From Halohasta salina (GTDB taxonomy: Archaea > Halobacteriota > Halobacteria > Halobacteriales > Haloferacaceae): 64,000 bases of DNA. Below, piece after piece: positions 4,367 to 55,823 of the stretch. The stretch covers positions 1 to 64,000 of the forward strand of contig NZ_JAMZIE010000008.1 of assembly GCF_024178165.1 (NCBI RefSeq). Reading direction: 5' to 3'. Numbering within the stretch: position 1 is the first letter of the stretch; each line of letters starts with the position of its first letter. The notes under the pieces were generated by a model. The model made no database searches, was not told the origin of the DNA, and saw only the letters and a list, made by a program, of their open reading frames with translations. Both the position numbers and the translations under genes were made by a program.

Positions 4367-5080
4367 ATGGAACGGTTACGGTTCGGGCTCCTACAGGCGG
4401 CCCAAGACAATCCAGACACGACGCGGAACTTCAGGCGCGAACTCGACGCCGACCTTGTCGAGTTCGACGTGAACAACGGCGAGCTCCCGCCACACACCGA
4501 GTTCGACGCGCTGGTCGTCACGGGATCGCGGGCCTCAGTCTACTGGGACGACGAGTGGATTGACCCGCTCGTCGAGTACGTCGCCGCGGCCGCCGCCGAC
4601 GGCGTGCCGATCCTCGGGGTCTGTTACGGACATCAGGTGCTCGCCGAGGCGCTGGGCGGCCGCGTGGCGGGGATGGACGACTTCGAGTTGGGCTACAATA
4701 CGGTCGAGCGGATCGGCGACGACCCGCTGTTGGCGGGGATCGACGACCGGTTTACGGTCTTTACGAGCCACGGCGACACCGTCGTCGACCTCCCGCCGGG
4801 GGCGGAACTGATCGCCCGCAACGACCACGGCGTCCATGGCTTCCGCCGGGGGGACTGCTGGGGCGTCCAGTTCCATCCCGAGTACGATATGGGGACCGCC
4901 CGCCGGATCGCCGAGAGCAAACGCGAGCGGCTGGGTGATCCGCAGGTCGACCGTGTCCTCGAAGGGATCTCGCCGGCACAGTACGACGCCGCCTGTGAGG
5001 CCAAACGGCTCTTCGAGAACTTCACGGCGTACGTTCGACAGCGGGCCGACGGGCGGGCGATGCCGGAGCCGACCGCCTGA
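4367..5080 (+). CDS. Class I glutamine amidotransferase-like protein
   Basis: I chose the ATG at 4367 (MERLRFGLLQ), giving 237 residues; the open frame upstream overlaps the hydrolase gene and is not protein-like. It has the nucleophile elbow GVCYGHQ with Cys86 and the distal QFHPEYD containing the catalytic His-x-Glu pair, so the Cys-His-Glu triad is intact. It resembles the GuaA-like stand-alone amidotransferases and contains no synthetase domain. It would release ammonia from glutamine or act on a gamma-glutamyl compound; the substrate is unknown. Confidence 0.87.
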   Translation: MERLRFGLLQAAQDNPDTTRNFRRELDADLVEFDVNNGELPPHTEFDALVVTGSRASVYWDDEWIDPLVEYVAAAAADGVPILGVCYGHQVLAEALGGRVAGMDDFELGYNTVERIGDDPLLAGIDDRFTVFTSHGDTVVDLPPGAELIARNDHGVHGFRRGDCWGVQFHPEYDMGTARRIAESKRERLGDPQVDRVLEGISPAQYDAACEAKRLFENFTAYVRQRADGRAMPEPTA

Positions 5081-6961: not shown

Positions 6962-9061
6962 ATGAGTCACGACGAGTTCCCAACCGACGACCCCGCGGTG
7001 GTGACCTGTGGGCTGCCGTACGCCAACGGCGACCTGCACGTCGGCCACCTGCGGACCTACGTCGGCGGCGACGTGTATTCCCGCGCGCTGAAAACCCTCG
7101 GCCAGCAGACCGTCTTCGTCTGCGGTTCCGACATGCACGGCACCCCGGTCGCGGTCAACGCCGAACAGGAGGGTGTCTCCCCCGAGGAGTTCGCCCTCGA
7201 GTGGCACGAGACCTACAAGGAAACGTTCCCCCGGTTCGACGTCGACTTCGACAACTACGGCCACACCCACGACGCGACGAACGCCGAGACGACGAAATCC
7301 ATCGTCCGGGCGCTCGATGAGGCGGGTCACGTCTACGAAAAGGAGATCATGGTCGCCTACGACCCCGTCGAGGACCAACACCTTCCGGATCGCTACGTCG
7401 AGGGGACCTGCCCGTACTGCGGCGAAAAGGCACGCGGCGACGAGTGCGACGAGGGTTGTCAGCGCCACCTCGAACCCGGCGAGATCGAAGAGCCGGTCTC
7501 GACGATCACCGGCAACCCCGCCGAGTACCACGAGCGCAGCCACAAGTTCTTCGCCGTCTCGGCGTTCGAAGACTACCTGTCCGAATTCTTGGACCGCCTC
7601 GAAGGCACCTCCAACGCCCGGAACCAGCCGCGGGAGTGGATCGAATCGGGGCTTCAAGACTGGTGTATTACGCGGGATATGGACTGGGGGATCGACTACC
7701 CCGGAGAGGGGGACGACGATGGCGAGACCGACCTCGTGCTCTACGTCTGGGTCGACGCCCCGATCGAGTACATCTCCTCGACCAAGCAGTACACCGAGCG
7801 CGTGGGGAGCGACACCTACGACTGGGAGGAGCCGTGGCGCGAAGACGGCGAGATCGTCCACGTCATCGGCCGCGATATCATCCAGCACCACTCGATCTTC
7901 TGGCCGGCGATGCTCAACGGCGCAGGGTACAACGAGCCACGAGCCATCATGGCCTCCGGTTTTGTCACGCTGGGCGGCAAAGGGTTCTCCACGAGCCGCG
8001 ACCGGGCAGTGTGGGCCGACGAGTACCTCGACGAGGGGTTCCACCCCGATCTGCTCCGCTACTATCTGGCGACGAACGGTGGCTTCCAGCAGGACGTCGA
8101 CTTCTCGTGGGACAAGTTCCGCGACCGGGTCAACACCGAACTCGTCGGCACGCTCGGCAACTTCGTCTACCGTTCCCTCCTCTTTGCGGCGCGCAACTAC
8201 GGCGGGACGCCCGACGCCGAGGTCTCCGAAGAAGTCGACGACCGCATCGCCGAAGCCGTCGACGAGTTCACCGACGCGATCAACGACTACTCGATCCGTG
8301 AGGCGGGCAACGCCGCGATCCGACTGGCGCAGTTCGGCAACGAGTACATCCAGCGCAACGAGCCGTGGAAGCTGACCGATGAGGACCCCGAACAGGCCCG
8401 ACAGGTCATCTACGACTGTGTGCAGATCGCCAAAGCACTCGCGGTCATCTTCCAGCCGATCGCTCCCGAAACCTGTCAGCGGCTCTGGGACCAACTCGGT
8501 GAGGACGGCGAGGTGGCCAACACGACCGTCGACGCCGCCCACGAAGCGCCACAGGGAAGCTTCGAGGAACCCGACGAACTCTTCGAGAAGATCGAAGCAG
8601 AGCGCGTCGACGAACTCAACACGAAACTCGAACAGCGCGTCGAAGCAGCGACTGCAGACGAAGACGACGAGGACGAATCCATGACCGAAGACACCGACGA
8701 CGACGCGGACGCACAGCCAGCCGATCTCGAACCGGTCGTCGAAGACCGGATCAGCTTCGAGGAGTTCCAAGACATCGACCTCCGGGTCGGCGAAATCAAA
8801 GAAGCAGAGCCCGTCGAGGGCGCGGACAAGCTCGCCAAGCTCCAGGTCGACATCGGCGTCGAGGTCCGCCAACTGGTCGCGGGGATCAAACAGCTCCACG
8901 ACCTCGAGGAGCTACCGGGCACCCGCGTCATCATCGTCGCCAACCTCGAAGAGGCCGAACTGTTCGGCGTCGAGTCCAACGGGATGCTGCTGGCCGCCGG
9001 TGACGAAGCGGATATCCTGACGACTCACGACGACTCGGCCCTCGGGACGCGCGTTCAGTAA
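6962..9061 (+). CDS. metG: Methionyl-tRNA synthetase
   Basis: This 699-residue class I synthetase charges tRNA-Met. It has the nucleotide site HVGH near residue 22 and a KMSKS-equivalent loop KGFSTS near residue 340. The zinc knuckle is CPYCGEKARGDECDEGC. The anticodon-binding helical domain follows. After a very acidic linker near residue 560-590, a C-terminal EMAP/Trbp111-like tRNA-binding domain begins around ISFEEFQDIDLRVGEI. Length and order match archaeal MetRS with a fused C-terminal domain. It is convergent with the next gene, with only six bases between stops. Confidence 0.97.
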   Translation: MSHDEFPTDDPAVVTCGLPYANGDLHVGHLRTYVGGDVYSRALKTLGQQTVFVCGSDMHGTPVAVNAEQEGVSPEEFALEWHETYKETFPRFDVDFDNYGHTHDATNAETTKSIVRALDEAGHVYEKEIMVAYDPVEDQHLPDRYVEGTCPYCGEKARGDECDEGCQRHLEPGEIEEPVSTITGNPAEYHERSHKFFAVSAFEDYLSEFLDRLEGTSNARNQPREWIESGLQDWCITRDMDWGIDYPGEGDDDGETDLVLYVWVDAPIEYISSTKQYTERVGSDTYDWEEPWREDGEIVHVIGRDIIQHHSIFWPAMLNGAGYNEPRAIMASGFVTLGGKGFSTSRDRAVWADEYLDEGFHPDLLRYYLATNGGFQQDVDFSWDKFRDRVNTELVGTLGNFVYRSLLFAARNYGGTPDAEVSEEVDDRIAEAVDEFTDAINDYSIREAGNAAIRLAQFGNEYIQRNEPWKLTDEDPEQARQVIYDCVQIAKALAVIFQPIAPETCQRLWDQLGEDGEVANTTVDAAHEAPQGSFEEPDELFEKIEAERVDELNTKLEQRVEAATADEDDEDESMTEDTDDDADAQPADLEPVVEDRISFEEFQDIDLRVGEIKEAEPVEGADKLAKLQVDIGVEVRQLVAGIKQLHDLEELPGTRVIIVANLEEAELFGVESNGMLLAAGDEADILTTHDDSALGTRVQ

Positions 9062-42925: not shown

Positions 42926-43756
42926 ATGATATCGACAGCCGTCGCCGACCTCTCGGTAGCATCGGTAGCCATGACACAGGGAGAACTGTTCCAAGAGATC
43001 GCCGCCAACCAGTCGTTGGCACTATCGTTCTGGTCGAACATCGCCCTCGCGGGGCTCTCGATCCTCCTGTTCGTCTATATGGGGCGTAACGTCGAGGATC
43101 CACGCTCCCAGCTGATCTTCGTGGCGACGTTGATGGTGCCGCTGGTGTCGATCTCCAGCTACACCGGGCTGGTATCGGGACTGACAGTCGGCTACGTCGA
43201 CGTTCCCTATCCGGGTGGAGGAACCGAGGAGGCGCTTATCATGTGGGGTCGCTACCTCACGTGGGCGTTCTCGACGCCGATGATCCTCACGGCGCTGGGG
43301 CTGTTGGCCGGTTCGAACCTGACGAAGATCTTCACCGCGGTGGCCATGGACATCGGGATGTGTGTCACCGGGCTCGCAGCCGCCCTGACCACCTCCTCGC
43401 TCGCGCTGCGGTGGTTCTGGTACTTCATTAGCTGTACGTTCTTCCTGGCGGTCATCTACGTCCTCCTCTACGAGTGGCCCGACGACGCGGCCGCCGCCGG
43501 AACGTCGGAGATCTTCGGCACGCTGAAGACCCTGACCGTCGTGCTGTGGTTCGGCTACCCGATCTTCTGGGCGCTCGGCTCGGAGGGGATCAACGTCCTC
43601 ACGACCACCCAGACCTCGTGGGCCTACAGCCTGCTCGACATCGGCGCGAAGTACTTCTTCGCGTACCTGCTGCTGCGATGGGTTGCGGCCAACGAATCGA
43701 TCATCGGCAGTGTCGCCTCGGGCGGCCTCGGCTCGGCGACGCCGGCCGACGACTAA
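42926..43756 (+). CDS. hop: Halorhodopsin, light-driven chloride pump
   Basis: The 276-residue protein has seven membrane helices. In helix C, R109-Y-L-T112-W-A-F-S116-T-P places Thr at the bacteriorhodopsin Asp85 site, Ser at the Thr89 site and Ala123 at the Asp96 site: the TSA signature of halorhodopsins. The retinal Schiff-base Lys242 is in DIGAKYFFAYLLLRW. AMCVTGLAAALTTSS-like helix D (MCVTGLAAALTTSS) and the ending ATPADD also match. It imports chloride on illumination, aiding osmotic balance. The first ATG gives a short leader as in other halorhodopsins; ATG 42971 is an alternative. A T6 tract follows the stop at 43779. Confidence 0.96.
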   Translation: MISTAVADLSVASVAMTQGELFQEIAANQSLALSFWSNIALAGLSILLFVYMGRNVEDPRSQLIFVATLMVPLVSISSYTGLVSGLTVGYVDVPYPGGGTEEALIMWGRYLTWAFSTPMILTALGLLAGSNLTKIFTAVAMDIGMCVTGLAAALTTSSLALRWFWYFISCTFFLAVIYVLLYEWPDDAAAAGTSEIFGTLKTLTVVLWFGYPIFWALGSEGINVLTTTQTSWAYSLLDIGAKYFFAYLLLRWVAANESIIGSVASGGLGSATPADD

Positions 43757-43805
43757 TCCCGACGACTCCGCCCTCGGTTTTTTGTGGGCTCCGACTCCCG
43801 AAGCC

Positions 43806-43985
43806 TCAGCGTTCCGCCCGGTACCAGTGGTCGACCATGACGGCGGCGACGACGACCACCGGAACGACTCCGAGCGTGTAGACGCCCGAGACGAACAGCA
43901 GCCCGAACAACAGCACCGTCGAGACAACTTGCATCGGAAGCTGCTGGTCGCCGAACCACGCGAGATACCGACTGAGAACGGACAT
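43806..43985 (-). CDS. Small membrane protein (59 aa) beside halorhodopsin
   Basis: From ATG 43985 to TGA 43806 lies a 59-residue frame beginning MSVLSRYLAWFGDQQLPMQV. It has two hydrophobic stretches, VVSTVLLFGLLFVSGVYTL and VVPVVVVAAVMV, and ends VDHWYRAER. The positively charged end and helical hairpin are typical of genuine small membrane proteins, and codon use fits the genome. It is convergent with halorhodopsin. Function unknown; a link to the pump is speculative. Confidence 0.6.
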   Translation of the reverse strand: MSVLSRYLAWFGDQQLPMQVVSTVLLFGLLFVSGVYTLGVVPVVVVAAVMVDHWYRAER

Positions 43986-44134
43986 ACTCCACCGAGGGGC
44001 GTCGGTGACAAAGCTCCAGCGGACGAATCGACTGGCGAAAAAATACGGAATCGATCGGCCGAACGGGCGTGATCGATGGTCGACAGCGGGACGGGGCTCA
44101 GCAGTGGGTCAGTGTGGGTAGGCTGTGACCGGCT

Positions 44135-49479: not shown

Positions 49480-49764
49480 TTACTGGAGATGGCCTTCGTC
49501 GCGGAGCTGTTCGGCCTCGGACTTCTCGTAGCGCCAGGTGATGTCGGCCTTCTCGTCCTGCCAGTCCCACGGTTCGACCAGCACGATGTCGTCTTCGCGG
49601 ATCCAGATGCGTTTTTGCATCCGGCCGGGGATGCGAGCGGTCCGTTCGACGCCGTCCGCACAGCGAACGGTGACTCGGTTGGCCCCGAGCATGTTCGTGA
49701 CTTCGGCGAACACCTCGTCGTCGTCCGGCATTCGGAGATCGCGTCGACTCTCGTTTTCGCTCAT
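49480..49764 (-). CDS. eif1a: Translation initiation factor aIF1A
   Basis: ATG 49764 ([13 protein letters not shown]) gives 94 residues. The S1-like OB fold shows [37 protein letters not shown] and [11 protein letters not shown], all conserved in the family. It binds the 30S A site during initiation. The 50-base gap to rio1 suggests an operon. Confidence 0.95.
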
Positions 49765-49851
49765 AATTTGGGGTTGGGAATCGTCCACTGTAAAAACGTG
49801 GGTTTGTGGTCCGGAAACGACGAACCTGCCGGATCAATCGATTGTCGACCG

Positions 49852-52800
49852 CTACGGAACACCACCTGGACCCTCGGTTTGGACCTCGACTTTGTCACCA
49901 GTATTGACGATCGTTGTATTGTCGACCCGTCGTTCAGCGTACGTACGAACGGTATAGTTCCGTTCAAACTCCGCGAGGATGTCCGTCGAGTAGGTGGTGT
50001 TTTCGGTAACACCCGTTTCGACATCGACTCGTTGAGTCTCACTAGCTTCGTAGATATCGGTGAGACGGATACTGTCGGAGCCAATGGCACCACCGTAGGG
50101 TTCTGTCGAGAAGTAGACATTCCCACTACGGGTAGGGACGTCCGTCTCAACGAAGTCCGTTTCGTCCCCAATAGCGTTCTCGTAGAGGATCACGTCGACC
50201 GTTGATTCGTCCTCACTGAGTGTGACCTCGATTCGGAACTCACCTTGGGGGAAATCATGATACCACGCCCCACCACGGTAGTAATCACTGCCTACGTAGC
50301 CAGTTTCCTCTTCAGCATCTCGAAGATACCAAAGATACCCAGCATTGATTCCCGGGTTGTAGTAGTAGTACGTGCGTGTCTCACCCCCGACGAGCGGTCT
50401 GTTATCATGGATGAAGTCGCTATCGTGAGTGTATCCCTCCGGATCGGTTCGCCACTCCCCATCGGTCGTGACGTTGTCACCGTTGTCCGTTTCCAGTTCG
50501 TTGAATTTACGATATGGTGTGTATTCGAAAGAGAGATTTGTCTCTTGCAGTGCGCCAATATCGACGAGTTCACCCTCGGCCTCAATTCGGTTGCCGTTGG
50601 GATGGGCACTGACAGTTTCGACGGTCGCGGTTTCGGTTCTTGCCGTAACTTCAGCACCGCTGTCGGTGATTGTGACGTTGTCGGCTATCCGTTCGGAGTA
50701 CGCACGTATCGCGTACTTGTGATCCGGTTTGAGGTTATTTATCTCCGCCGAGTAGTTGGTACTACCAGTGACACCTGTTTTGGCTTCGTGTTGTTCGGAG
50801 TCACTGGGTTCGTAGATGTCGGTGAGACGGATGCTGTCGGAGTCGGTGGCCCCTCCGTAGGGATGTGTCGAGAAATAAACGTTCCCGCTGCGGGTAGGGA
50901 CATCCGTCTCAACGAAGTCCGTTTCGTCCCCAGTGGCGTTCTCGTAGAGGATCACGTCGACCGTTGATTCGTCCTCACTGAGTGTGACCTCGATTCGGAA
51001 CTCGCCTTGGGGGAAATCATGATACCACGCCCCACCACGGTGGTAATCACTGCCTACGTAGCCAGTTTCCTCTTCCGCATCTCGAAGATACCAAAGATAC
51101 CCAGCATTGATTCCTGGGTTGTAGTAGTAGTACGTGCGTGTCTCACCCCCGACGAGCGGTCTGTTATCATGGATGAAGTCGCTATCGTGAGTGTATCCCT
51201 CCGGATCGGTTCGCCACTCCCCATCGGTCGTGACGTTGTCACCGTTGTCCTCGCGGTCTTTATTGAACGCACGGTATGGGACGGTTTCGAACCACAGGTC
51301 CGTCTGGTGTAGATCACCCAAGTCGACGAGTTCACCCTCGGCTTCAACCGAGGTACCGCCGGTTGCGTTTGCTTGGAGTGTCGTGATAGATGGACCGTTG
51401 AGATAGGTAGTGTATCGTTCACCAGTGTCGACGATTTCCGTCCCGTTGACCATCTCTTCGGCATAGGCACGGACAGTGTAGTTCCGTCCCGGTCTGAGGC
51501 CTGTGATATTCGTGTTGTAGCCGGTCGGTTCGGTAACGTCTCTTTCGGCCGTAACGAATTCAATCTCGGCAGTATCATAAATGTCGGTCAGCCGAATGCT
51601 GTTCTCACCGCTGGTTCCGCTCGTGTGCGTCGTGAAGTAGACATCCCCAGATCTCGTAGAAACATCAGTGTCTGCAATGTGTACATCGTCACCGGTCATA
51701 TTTTTATACGAGATCACGTCGACGGTCGAGCCGTCCTCACTGAGTGTGACCTCGATTCGGAACCCGCCGTCCGGCCAGTCACCATAATAGTACCCACCTC
51801 TATAGTAATCGTGATACATAGATCCGGAATCTTCCGGTGCGTCTCGAAGATGCCAAAGATAGTTCCCCCCAACACCGGCAGAGTTATTGTAGTAATATGT
51901 ACGTGTCTCCCCCTCAACAAGTGGTTTGTTGTCGTGGACGTATCTCCCTGCGTGGGTGTAGCCGGTGGGGTCCGTTCGCCACACACCACTGGCAGTGATG
52001 TTGTCCCCGTTGTCATTGCTGTCTTTATTGAAAAACCGGTGTGGGATGTATTCGAACAGTAGATCCGTGCTGTCAAGACTTCCGATGTCAACCAACCGAC
52101 CAGTCGAATTGATTCTAGTGCCACTGGCTGGCGGGGCACCGACTGTCTCAACGACCTGACTCTCAGTACTGTTCGTGAGTCGATCCCCAGTCGCAGTCAC
52201 CGTTTCCCCACCGATCTCCGCCCGTGCGTATGCACGAGCGGAATACGTCTGGTCGACGTTGAGGCCGGTAATCTCGGCTGAATAGTTCTTCTCTTTTGTC
52301 ACATCCGTTTCGGCCTCGGTGAGTTCAGCTTCGCCGGGTTCGCGGATATCAGTGAGTCGGATGCTATTCTCACCGCTGGTTCCACTCGTGTGCGTCGTGA
52401 AGTAGACATCACCGTTTCTGGTTGAAACACCCCGATCTGCAATGTGTACGTCATCTCCAGTGACATCCTTGTAGGAGACCACGTCGACGGTCGAGCCGTC
52501 CTCACTGAGTGTGACCTCGATTCGGAACCCGCTGTCCGGCCAGTCACCGTAATAGTACCCACCTCTATAGTAATCGTGATACATAGAACCGGAATCTTCC
52601 GGTGCATCCCGGAGATGCCAAAGATAATTCCCCCCAACACCGGCGGAGTTATTGTAGTAATATGTACGTGTCTCTCCCTCAACGAGTGGTTTGTTGTCGT
52701 GGACGTATCTCCCTGCGTGGGTGTAGCCGGCGGGATCCGTTCGCCACTCTCCGCTGGCAATGATGTTGTCCCCGTTGTCTTCGCTGTCGTTGTTGAACGC

Positions 52801-52900
52801 TCGGTATGGGATGGTTTCGAACAGCAGATCTACTTCTGGGAGACGACCCATATCAGTCAGCTCACCTTTCGCCTCAATCGAGGTCGGACCTGTTGTGGAG
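49852..52900. repeat. Four tandem ~765-bp coding repeats
   Basis: Unit boundaries lie near 52895, 52125, 51360 and 50595. Equivalent points recur at 762 bases (50197 and 50959) and 765 bases (51721 and 52486), that is 254-255 codons. Near-identical DNA blocks join units 1-2 (about 51717-52010 with 52482-52775) and units 3-4 (about 50190-50475 with 50952-51240). Similarity between the pairs is lower. This suggests two rounds of duplication followed by gene conversion within pairs. Confidence 0.85.
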
Positions 52901-53601
52901 GCGTCATGCGTCTCCACCTCCAAAACCGGTGGATTCTCTAGGATGATGATCTCGGTTTCGTTGGTCGCGTCGTCGACCTCGGCGGTCGCGTTCACCACGG
53001 TATCCGCTTCCGTGCCGGTGATCGTCGACGCACCCTCGTCTACACTGAGTTTCGAGCTATCCTCGACAGTGATGTTTGCCTCATTGGTCACGGTTCTGTT
53101 GATCTCGCGGTCGCCAAATTCAAAGACTTCCTTGACCGTGTAGTTGGCTGGGTTGTCCTTCAGCACGTAGGCCGGATCGCTCTCGTTGGCGATCTCGAAT
53201 ACCAACCTGTCGGCCGTGGAGTCGAAGTCGTAAGTTTCGCTGTGGACGACCGTCTCGGTCGGATCATGGATCACCAGCAGCTCGAACTGCCCATCGAGAA
53301 TCGGATCGTCGAACGTCTCGTTGGAGCTGGTTCCTGGAGCGAGGGGACTCTCAAGGCTGATATTCTCGTCGACACCCACCAGCCGGATCGTCGTCTCGTT
53401 CGGAGACAGCGTGTCGCCGCCCCGGTGGTCCAGCGTCACATTGATTGGCGTGGCATCGGATTCGATATCGGCGATCGGTCCCTGTTCGAGGTCGGCCTGC
53501 CACTCGGTCAACACGACGGCTCCCGCCCCGGTAACCGTGAGCGTGATCACGGCCGTCAGGAGGATGACACCGACGCTCTCGCTTTGGGCACGCTCGAACA
53601 T
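49852..53601 (-). CDS. Giant pilin-like surface protein with four tandem FN3-like repeats
   Basis: The start is ATG 53601, overlapping the stop of the upstream gene by one base; the product has about 1249 residues. The N terminus RAQSESVGVILLTAVITLTV is an archaeal type-IV-pilin (class III) signal. A beta domain to about residue 235 precedes four units of about 255 residues starting near 237, 490, 745 and 1000. Each begins with a GELTDMG/GELVDLG strand. Next come a Tyr-rich core (EGETRTYYYNNS, HDYYRGGYYYGDW) and FRIEVTLSED. Each closes with an FN3-like NYTVRAYAE end. Many N-x-S/T sequons are present. I infer an external fibre or adhesin. No known domain covers the core. Confidence 0.85.
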   Translation of the reverse strand: MFERAQSESVGVILLTAVITLTVTGAGAVVLTEWQADLEQGPIADIESDATPINVTLDHRGGDTLSPNETTIRLVGVDENISLESPLAPGTSSNETFDDPILDGQFELLVIHDPTETVVHSETYDFDSTADRLVFEIANESDPAYVLKDNPANYTVKEVFEFGDREINRTVTNEANITVEDSSKLSVDEGASTITGTEADTVVNATAEVDDATNETEIIILENPPVLEVETHDASTTGPTSIEAKGELTDMGRLPEVDLLFETIPYRAFNNDSEDNGDNIIASGEWRTDPAGYTHAGRYVHDNKPLVEGETRTYYYNNSAGVGGNYLWHLRDAPEDSGSMYHDYYRGGYYYGDWPDSGFRIEVTLSEDGSTVDVVSYKDVTGDDVHIADRGVSTRNGDVYFTTHTSGTSGENSIRLTDIREPGEAELTEAETDVTKEKNYSAEITGLNVDQTYSARAYARAEIGGETVTATGDRLTNSTESQVVETVGAPPASGTRINSTGRLVDIGSLDSTDLLFEYIPHRFFNKDSNDNGDNITASGVWRTDPTGYTHAGRYVHDNKPLVEGETRTYYYNNSAGVGGNYLWHLRDAPEDSGSMYHDYYRGGYYYGDWPDGGFRIEVTLSEDGSTVDVISYKNMTGDDVHIADTDVSTRSGDVYFTTHTSGTSGENSIRLTDIYDTAEIEFVTAERDVTEPTGYNTNITGLRPGRNYTVRAYAEEMVNGTEIVDTGERYTTYLNGPSITTLQANATGGTSVEAEGELVDLGDLHQTDLWFETVPYRAFNKDREDNGDNVTTDGEWRTDPEGYTHDSDFIHDNRPLVGGETRTYYYYNPGINAGYLWYLRDAEEETGYVGSDYHRGGAWYHDFPQGEFRIEVTLSEDESTVDVILYENATGDETDFVETDVPTRSGNVYFSTHPYGGATDSDSIRLTDIYEPSDSEQHEAKTGVTGSTNYSAEINNLKPDHKYAIRAYSERIADNVTITDSGAEVTARTETATVETVSAHPNGNRIEAEGELVDIGALQETNLSFEYTPYRKFNELETDNGDNVTTDGEWRTDPEGYTHDSDFIHDNRPLVGGETRTYYYYNPGINAGYLWYLRDAEEETGYVGSDYYRGGAWYHDFPQGEFRIEVTLSEDESTVDVILYENAIGDETDFVETDVPTRSGNVYFSTEPYGGAIGSDSIRLTDIYEASETQRVDVETGVTENTTYSTDILAEFERNYTVRTYAERRVDNTTIVNTGDKVEVQTEGPGGVP

Positions 53602-54746
53602 CAGCAAGCCCCCGTCGCGTTGATCCGCTCGTAGGCTTCCGTCGTACCGATGTTGTCGTCGAGTGCGATCCCACAAGGGGAGTCGACTCCAGTGAGCCGT
53701 ACCGATCTATTGCTCGCTGGGTTTTCCAGTTCCGCAGTCGATTTCTCATCGACGTCTCCAGAGGCGTTGAACACCCAGACGTCGACCCCTTCATCGACAG
53801 GATCGTGGAACCTGTCCCGAATTTTAAACTTCAAATCCGTGCCACTGTACGAAACGTTCTGGAGATACGTCGGTTCCGGCTCGGTGGGTCCCGATCCGAC
53901 GTCGACTTTGTGGATTGTCAGGGTGTAATTCGTCGAACTATTGAGCCGGATCGTGGCGTTCCCGTCGTTCACCGAGACGTTTTCGACCTCCTGCTCACTG
54001 TGGAGGATATCGTCGGGATCAGTCGTGTTCCACTGCTCCTCGCCCAGTCCGGTCGGGAGTTCGAGCGTGATCAGGCCGGTGTTCGAATCGTTCGTGACCT
54101 CGATTTCGGTCGACTCGGTCACTCGCTCAGGGATGACCGACTCGGCGTCGGTGTCGACCGACTGGAGATCGCCGTCGATGACGACGAGTTCGATCTCGTC
54201 GCCGTCGATGATCGGCTGGTGGTTCTCGGCCAGTCGAAGTTCGGTAGTGTTCGATTCGTCGTACTCGGCCGCGAGCATCCCGTACTCGATCCGGTAGTCG
54301 GCCGTCCCGCGAAGGACCCGGTAGTTCGGACTGTAGGTGATCGCCTGCGCCTCGTAGCTCCGCGTGGTGTTGTCCCAGTAGTTGTCGAACGACTGGTTGG
54401 TGTCGGTGACTGCCGTCACGTTGTGAAGTCGCACCGGCTTATCGGCGGTCGTCTGTAGCGTTCCGCTGGCCGGCGGCGGATAGATGAAAAACAGTCGGTT
54501 GTTGTACTCCGTGCCGAGGGTAATCGTCGCCGGCTGTGGCTCGCCGTCGACGACCGTCTCGAAGACGGCCGTATACAGGTCGACCATCTCATCGCCGACC
54601 TGCTGGCTGTGCTCGAACTCGACCTGCCTGTTTTCCTCCGGCACGCCCTGTGCCTGATAGAGCGTGAGAGCGATGATCAGAAACCCGAACAACAGTACGG
54701 CTCCGACCTGAATCGACTGGGCTCGGTTGTCGGAGCAGAAATTCAT
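53601..54746 (-). CDS. Pilin-like secreted protein (DUF7289-like)
   Basis: ATG 54746 (MNFCSDNRAQSIQVGAVLLF) gives 381 residues. The RAQSIQVGAVLLFGFLIIAL start is a class III signal plus helix. EFEHSQQVGDEMVDLYTAVF and FFIYPPPASGTLQTT follow, as I remember from a haloarchaeal DUF7289 family. The rest is beta-rich with many sequons. A Cys pair near the end (PCGIALD, NATGAC) could be a disulfide. A TTTTTAAT box 27 bases upstream implies a leaderless mRNA. It forms an operon with the repeat protein and likely shares an assembly pathway. Confidence 0.85.
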   Translation of the reverse strand: MNFCSDNRAQSIQVGAVLLFGFLIIALTLYQAQGVPEENRQVEFEHSQQVGDEMVDLYTAVFETVVDGEPQPATITLGTEYNNRLFFIYPPPASGTLQTTADKPVRLHNVTAVTDTNQSFDNYWDNTTRSYEAQAITYSPNYRVLRGTADYRIEYGMLAAEYDESNTTELRLAENHQPIIDGDEIELVVIDGDLQSVDTDAESVIPERVTESTEIEVTNDSNTGLITLELPTGLGEEQWNTTDPDDILHSEQEVENVSVNDGNATIRLNSSTNYTLTIHKVDVGSGPTEPEPTYLQNVSYSGTDLKFKIRDRFHDPVDEGVDVWVFNASGDVDEKSTAELENPASNRSVRLTGVDSPCGIALDDNIGTTEAYERINATGAC

Positions 54747-54836
54747 TTCTGCGGAGGTATTTTCTACATGATTAAAAATGTATTGAAACCGGTGTCGGTC
54801 CCGCACCGGTGAGTCGAGTTGAAACGGGGGTCGATT

Positions 54837-55823
54837 TCAGGCGTCGAGTTGTTGTCGACCGGGTGCGATTAGGGCGTCGAGCTCCGACGCGAGGGCACCT
54901 TTGGCGTCCATCGGGTGGAGTTCGCCGGATTCCATATCTGCCTCTAGGGCCTCGTAGCTCTCGTATTCGAGATCGCCGCCGTACTCTTCGGGGCGCTCGA
55001 CCACGACGGTGTCGACCCGCGGGAACACATGGTACTTGAACAGTTGCAGGACGGGGTTCTCGCGTTCGTTGCCCTCGTCGTCGGGGTCGGGATCGGCCGT
55101 CGGCGGACAGAAGGCGTCGTTGACTTTCTCGGCGATCTCCTTGCTGGAGTCGTCCATCGAGATCGTCACCCCGTCGCTGGAGGACATCTTGCCGACACCA
55201 GTAGAGAGGTCGGCAATGATCGGCGTGTGGAGCGCGGGCCGGACGTCGTAGCCGAGCTCGGGCAGCGTCTCGCGTGCCAGCATGTGGACCTTCCGCTGGT
55301 CGAGCCCGCCGACCGCGAGGTCGACGTCGAGATATTCGATATCCAGCGCCTGCATGAGGGGGTAGACCATCTGGGAGACCTTGGCGTGGTCGCCGCGCTG
55401 GATCTCGGCCATCGACCGCTTGGCGCGGGAGAGCGTCGTCTCCAACTCGGCGGCGTGCAGATCGAGGGTGTACTCCTCGTCGAGCTGGAACTCCGAGCCG
55501 AGGACGAACTCGGTTTGTTCCTCGTCGAGGCCGTAGGCGATGAACTGCTCCTGCATTCGCTCGGCAGTTTCGCGGATTTCCTCGAAGGTGCCCTTGTCGT
55601 TCAGGTAGGCGTGAACGTCGGCCAGCAGGACCGTGACTTCGAAGCCCGCCTCTTGGAGGTCGATCAGTTTCGTCGCGGTCAGCATGTGGCCGATGTGGAG
55701 GACGCCGGAGGGTTCGTAGCCGACATAGGCTCGCTTGCCCTCGGGGCTGTTGGCTAGCGTGCGAACCTCGTCGTCGGTGACCACCTCATCGGCATTCCGG
55801 GTGATCAACTCGTAGGCGTCCAT
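54837..55823 (-). CDS. tyrS: Tyrosyl-tRNA synthetase
   Basis: At 328 residues this class I synthetase has HIGH in GVLHIGHMLTATKLIDLQ near residue 40, the tyrosine site LADVHAYLNDKG near 70, GGLDQRKVHMLARE near 172 and the KMSKS loop GKMSSSDG near 210. The overall size and DVHAYLN favour TyrRS over the related TrpRS. It charges tRNA-Tyr. Confidence 0.94.
   Translation of the reverse strand: MDAYELITRNADEVVTDDEVRTLANSPEGKRAYVGYEPSGVLHIGHMLTATKLIDLQEAGFEVTVLLADVHAYLNDKGTFEEIRETAERMQEQFIAYGLDEEQTEFVLGSEFQLDEEYTLDLHAAELETTLSRAKRSMAEIQRGDHAKVSQMVYPLMQALDIEYLDVDLAVGGLDQRKVHMLARETLPELGYDVRPALHTPIIADLSTGVGKMSSSDGVTISMDDSSKEIAEKVNDAFCPPTADPDPDDEGNERENPVLQLFKYHVFPRVDTVVVERPEEYGGDLEYESYEALEADMESGELHPMDAKGALASELDALIAPGRQQLDA

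Follow-up and report, generated by a model that had tools for sequence, protein, structure and literature searches.

Organization of the locus

The window, i.e., the whole 64,000-nucleotide stretch of Halohasta salina DNA that was analysed, carries on its minus strand two adjacent genes, A and B, which lie between the gene for tyrosyl-tRNA ligase (54837-55823) on one side and those for an eIF1A-like protein (49480-49788; named from its own sequence) and Rio1 (from 48566) on the other:

53601-54746, minus strand: gene A, 381 residues, class III signal; from the open reading frame and its homologs
49852-53601, minus strand: gene B, 1249 residues, pilin and four nested units; from the open reading frame and Pfam
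54764-54780, minus strand: CATTTTTAATCATGTAG, a possible TATA-type promoter element 18-34 bases upstream of A, with a putative function

The two frames overlap by one base (TGATG), and both the pairing and the coordinates given in a preliminary description of the window proved correct. A second Halohasta species (G068) has a string near-identical to CATTTTTAATCATGTAG ahead of its decayed A. The gap between tyrS and A also holds short repeats of the type CAACTCGACGCCTGAA (window 54811-54850), with more copies in G068 (L061 ~7550-7620). The eIF1A-like gene marks a local rearrangement: it lies between B and rio1 here, but in Halohasta litorea (L081 ~4780-5080) tyrS and B flank it. No pilus assembly genes adjoin A or B at the locus, and no carbohydrate-enzyme genes were recognised next to B.

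Signals, sequons and the gene A family

The N-termini read MNFCSDNRA/QSIQVGAVLLFG in A and MFERA/QSESVGVILL in B, the slash marking the predicted processing site. Both sites (NRA/QSIQVGAVLL and ERA/QSESVGVILL, respectively) follow the class III pattern: K or R before A or G, then Q or L, then a hydrophobic stretch. Each protein has a single hydrophobic segment, which starts near residues 8-17; no second segment is present in either, and B is devoid of cysteine. B has 31 sequons, all beyond residue 40, where 1000 shuffles of the same composition gave 12.3 ± 3.1 and never more than 23; A has 14, against 3.8 ± 1.6. The preliminary description had reported type IV pilin signals on both proteins and a high density of N-glycosylation sequons; the signals are there, and the sequons exceed those in shuffled sequences two- to fourfold in A and B alike.

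Homologs of A are found in 336 of 391 genomes of the class, yet neither Pfam nor NCBIfam has a match for A. In a hand count over 35 sampled loci, the homolog is near DUF2150 and/or HMG-CoA synthase in 32, with a pilin-signal gene coming next in 15; no literature on this neighbourhood was found under the presumed Haloferax locus tags. The C-terminal part varies among homologs and elsewhere bears PKD or other Ig-like domains. Halohasta has A paralogs without B at the usual site of the family and, at the tyrS/rio1 site, this second copy paired with B. In the window's own genome, two A paralogs lie in tandem beside DUF2150 and near HMG-CoA synthase (L156 3642-6809), with no pilin partner. Two further genomes (G066 and G231) have A without B at the tyrS/rio1 site, with 48-49% identity. 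A would be a conserved haloarchaeal pilin-signal partner, probably either a minor pilin or a scaffold. B is independent of this copy of A because it persists where A has decayed or is absent: in G068, only ~114 residues of A remain, immediately ahead of an intact B (L061 ~7050-7450), and in H. litorea A is missing from the tyrS/rio1 site while B is present.

A complete pilin at the N-terminus of B

B is divided as follows:

53221-53601, minus strand: residues 1-127, a whole small pilin with signal, hydrophobic helix and beta head; from PF07790 (residues 6-74) and end-to-end alignment
52918-53220, minus strand: residues 128-228, linker of 101 residues, rich in sequons (6); from the sequence
52153-52917, minus strand: unit 1 (residues 229-483), FN3 with inserted core; from repeat analysis
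52339-52803, minus strand: core insert of unit 1 (residues 267-421); from profile matches
51388-52152, minus strand: unit 2 (residues 484-738), FN3 with inserted core; from repeat analysis
51574-52038, minus strand: core insert of unit 2 (residues 522-676); from profile matches
50623-51387, minus strand: unit 3 (residues 739-993), FN3 with inserted core; used for the whole-unit model
50809-51273, minus strand: core insert of unit 3 (residues 777-931), predicted lectin-like fold; from the structure model
49855-50622, minus strand: unit 4 (residues 994-1249), FN3 with inserted core; from repeat analysis
50044-50508, minus strand: core insert of unit 4 (residues 1032-1186); from profile matches

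Residues 1-127 align over their full length with stand-alone pilins of other genera (~130-144 residues), and the head that follows the helix (residues 40-127) aligns with complete stand-alone pilins. The Pilin_N family (PF07790) is narrowly missed by B itself (24.8 bits, E 4e-5, cut-off 25.2) and is matched over the cut-off by its orthologs, at 30.5 bits in G068 and 26.7 bits in the other. Judged by these alignments, this part of B is an ordinary complete small haloarchaeal pilin.

The view that a giant protein with a pilin signal would be unusual is not supported. The size of B alone is not new because, according to a review, archaeal proteins predicted to carry type IV pilin signals span fewer than 150 to well over 1000 residues (PMC4371748); in other haloarchaea, pilin-signal genes of ~490-860 codons adjoin the homologs of A.

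Repeat units are FN3 domains interrupted by a core

The four units of ~255 residues noted previously are located at residues 229, 484, 739 and 994. In each, the first ~38 and the last ~62 residues are halves of one FN3 domain (Pfam fn3, E 5.4e-7, 30.2 bits, cut-off 25), separated by an insert of ~155 residues, which is the Tyr/Gly-rich core of the preliminary description. That description had the core closed by FN3-like strands: the FN3 elements are real, the capping is not. The core is an insert rather than a capped domain because FN3 strands flank it on both sides, and a separate core with FN3 caps is ruled out by relatives (G165 and the B of H. litorea) in which uninterrupted FN3 copies, found among interrupted ones, align with the joined flanks of a unit. 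A model of the whole of unit 3 (pLDDT 69, pTM 0.57) matches an FN3-fold chain with a VIA Z of 11.3 over 95 residues (rmsd 2.3), in an alignment that extends to both termini of the unit. Alignments and model thus place the core inside a single FN3 domain in every unit. Solved structures related to B by sequence comprise FN3 matches only, all weak.

Predicted fold of the core

By sequence, the core matches no Pfam family over its cut-off, in line with the earlier remark that it lacks a named domain, but it is of a known kind if its predicted fold is right. The best of five models of the core alone (pLDDT 70.9, pTM 0.74) has a PRYSPRY domain as its first Foldseek match (E 1.1e-4, probability 1.00, TM 0.47), followed by galectins, ERGIC-53 and glucanases, and reaches VIA Z scores of 8.8 to galectin-14 (105 residues) and 8.2 to ERGIC-53 (136 residues). 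Structure prediction and search, proposed earlier as a check, returned FN3 for the unit and, for the core modelled alone, a likeness to SPRY domains, galectins and L-type lectins with moderate confidence. The core probably has the concanavalin A-like lectin/glucanase fold; the assignment is probable rather than proven because a VIA Z of 8.8 is just above the usual background of 7-8.

That the fold is new, and the lectin-like match an artefact of a poor model, is doubtful. The alignment behind the model has six sequences, the five models disagree widely (pLDDT 71 to 40), and the Z scores are borderline; against this, nearly all top matches of the core, as well as many Foldseek matches of the whole unit, fall into the one superfamily, and faint sequence hints agree, with Gal-bind_lectin (E 0.12) and, for a core of H. 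litorea B, Alginate_lyase2 (E 0.0016, 18.7 bits, under the cut-off of 29.7).

The invariant positions of the core are G, P, H, H, N, Y and R; no sugar-binding residues were identified in it, and the concanavalin A-like fold is also used by enzymes and by protein-binding SPRY domains. The core model also resembles viral tail proteins, most likely owing to a common fold and not to sequence kinship. As a viral or plasmid-borne domain the core was rejected: searches of phages, plasmids and viral contigs gave no match.

Distribution of the core

An HMM search across haloarchaea, likewise proposed earlier, was run with the unit profile and found strong core matches in only 5 of 382 genomes of the class (three Halohasta, G165 and G285), as judged from profile matches; the other genomes listed show short FN3-like stretches or weak matches only. 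The idea of a common domain of the phylum was discarded, as a profile search of 393 phylum genomes returned Halohasta only. The three Halohasta species have 4, 3 and 2 copies of the unit, and a fourth, incomplete genome of the genus has no core match. In H. litorea, the expected last FN3 strands of B seem to continue in another frame (L081 7600-7872): the last unit seems to be shortened, or the record is in error.

In G165, from another family, the core is part of a 2141-residue protein with a different N-terminal signal (L063 5476-11901), in which plain FN3 domains alternate with core-carrying ones; its GC3 of 0.40 is low for a haloarchaeon and suggests recent import. In G285, from a more distant family (L064 6316-8628), the core lies outside FN3 and seems to be interrupted by ~100 residues.

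Composition and probable concerted evolution

The region had been described as less GC-rich than its surroundings, and it is: GC is 0.52-0.58 across the repeats versus 0.61-0.68 in most of the flanking sequence. GC3 is 0.47-0.65 in the repeat parts, 0.79 in the pilin part and 0.78-0.87 in neighbouring genes. The repeats may be of foreign origin, but this is not established because the GC3 gap between repeats and pilin part, strong here, is smaller in G068, where the repeats are somewhat lower, and slight in H. litorea. Elsewhere in the window, the frame at 43022-44011 has the lowest GC3 of the 36 larger frames (0.57), below that of B.

Within B, protein identity is 90% between cores 1 and 2, which agree at 49 of 66 shared fourfold sites, and 94% between cores 3 and 4, which agree at 59 of 67; cores 1 and 3 agree at only 36% of such sites. 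By contrast, the FN3 halves of the same pairs of units have 35-51% protein identity and a fourfold identity of 0.40-0.50. The trees conflict: cores group as 1+2 and 3+4 (96% for 3+4), FN3 halves as 2+4 (80%). The simplest reading, drawn from one genome and with moderate tree support, is that a block of two units was duplicated and that adjacent cores then underwent gene conversion. These patterns point to concerted evolution of the cores, the presumed binding modules.

A candidate pilin-anchored adhesin

Taken together, the signals, the pilin part, the nesting in FN3, the repeats, the rarity of the core and the homogenised cores, all read from sequence, make B probably a modular surface adhesin that is anchored by a pilin and carries lectin-like modules on an FN3 rod. 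We infer that prepilin peptidase cuts B at the class III signal and that residues 1-127 hold the protein in the membrane at the cell surface and/or make it a minor subunit of a type IV pilus-like filament. The linker, presumably glycosylated, and the four FN3 modules would form a rod, each module displaying a predicted concanavalin A-like beta-sandwich inserted in its middle; these inserts may bind a ligand, most likely cell-surface glycans. The genome of the window has one match to Peptidase_A24 and four to secretion ATPases (PF00437) over the cut-offs. Against this reading stand the modest confidence of the core model, the lack of pilus assembly genes next to either gene, and the persistence of B where A has decayed or is missing.

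Alternatively, B could remain unassembled, as a monomeric, membrane-tethered protein associated with the S-layer, with the pilin part as its anchor and the units engaged in S-layer packing or in interaction with viruses. The lack of assembly genes at the locus would fit, as would the difficulty of packing a 1249-residue subunit many times into a helical filament; fast divergence and changing copy number suit a surface under viral pressure, which has been inferred for haloarchaeal surface proteins (PMC6011602). We consider this somewhat unlikely: B retains a complete pilin head, more than an anchor helix, and archaeal assembly ATPases appear to work commonly with pilins encoded elsewhere (PMC4858521). 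It is improbable that B is a pilin-anchored enzyme whose four cores degrade exopolysaccharide as polysaccharide lyases or glycoside hydrolases, a role hinted at by the weak Alginate_lyase2 match and the glucanases among the Foldseek matches, since no core passes the cut-off of any enzyme family, carbohydrate-enzyme genes were not recognised next to B, and four near-identical copies in a rod would suit avidity better than catalysis.

A further reading can be offered tentatively, as a speculation that we would not favour at present: B may belong to a haloarchaeal pilin-borne recognition system in which gene conversion repeatedly homogenises the lectin-like modules nested in FN3 and whole units come and go, giving each species its own set of binding modules for kin recognition or mating.

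Relation to known systems

To our knowledge, a complete pilin bearing nested FN3/lectin-like units, a core of this kind without a Pfam entry, and concerted evolution of such cores have not been described before. The nested build and the concerted evolution confined to the insert would illustrate how surface receptors are built and diversified in archaea. B, a pilin with four modules that may bind glycans, is a concrete and testable candidate for mutual recognition of haloarchaea ahead of aggregation or mating, in a genus of the same family as Haloferax volcanii. Surface glycans are known to matter in Haloferax (discussed in PMC7064770).

Residues 1-127 of B share with archaeal type IV pilins (PF07790, PilA-like) the class III signal, the hydrophobic helix and the head; the linker and adhesin-like units of B add a further 1120 residues. 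The concanavalin A-like superfamily (galectin, SPRY, L-type lectin, GH16 and PL7) gives the best structural match of the predicted core, yet none of its Pfam member families matches over the cut-off, and the core is found only as an insert in FN3 or, in G285, outside it. The second FnIII domain of the insulin receptor (FnIII-2), like the units of B, is a discontinuous FN3 whose halves flank an insert, and chains of the insulin and IGF1 receptors are in the VIA list of the whole-unit model; the receptor insert is largely disordered, whereas that of B is predicted to be a folded domain.

Two systems of Sulfolobus come close in other respects. The bindosome proteins GlcS and AraS are sugar-binding proteins with pilin-type signals that are handled by a pilus-like machine (PMC4187195). 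They share this type of signal with B but serve ABC sugar transport. We know of no concanavalin A-like or FN3 units in bindosome proteins. The UpsA pilin, which has species-specific regions, has been proposed to bind N-glycans of the S-layer (PMC7064770) and is a precedent for glycan recognition by an archaeal pilin; the site of UpsA is in the small pilin itself, whereas that of B would reside in the added lectin-like modules.
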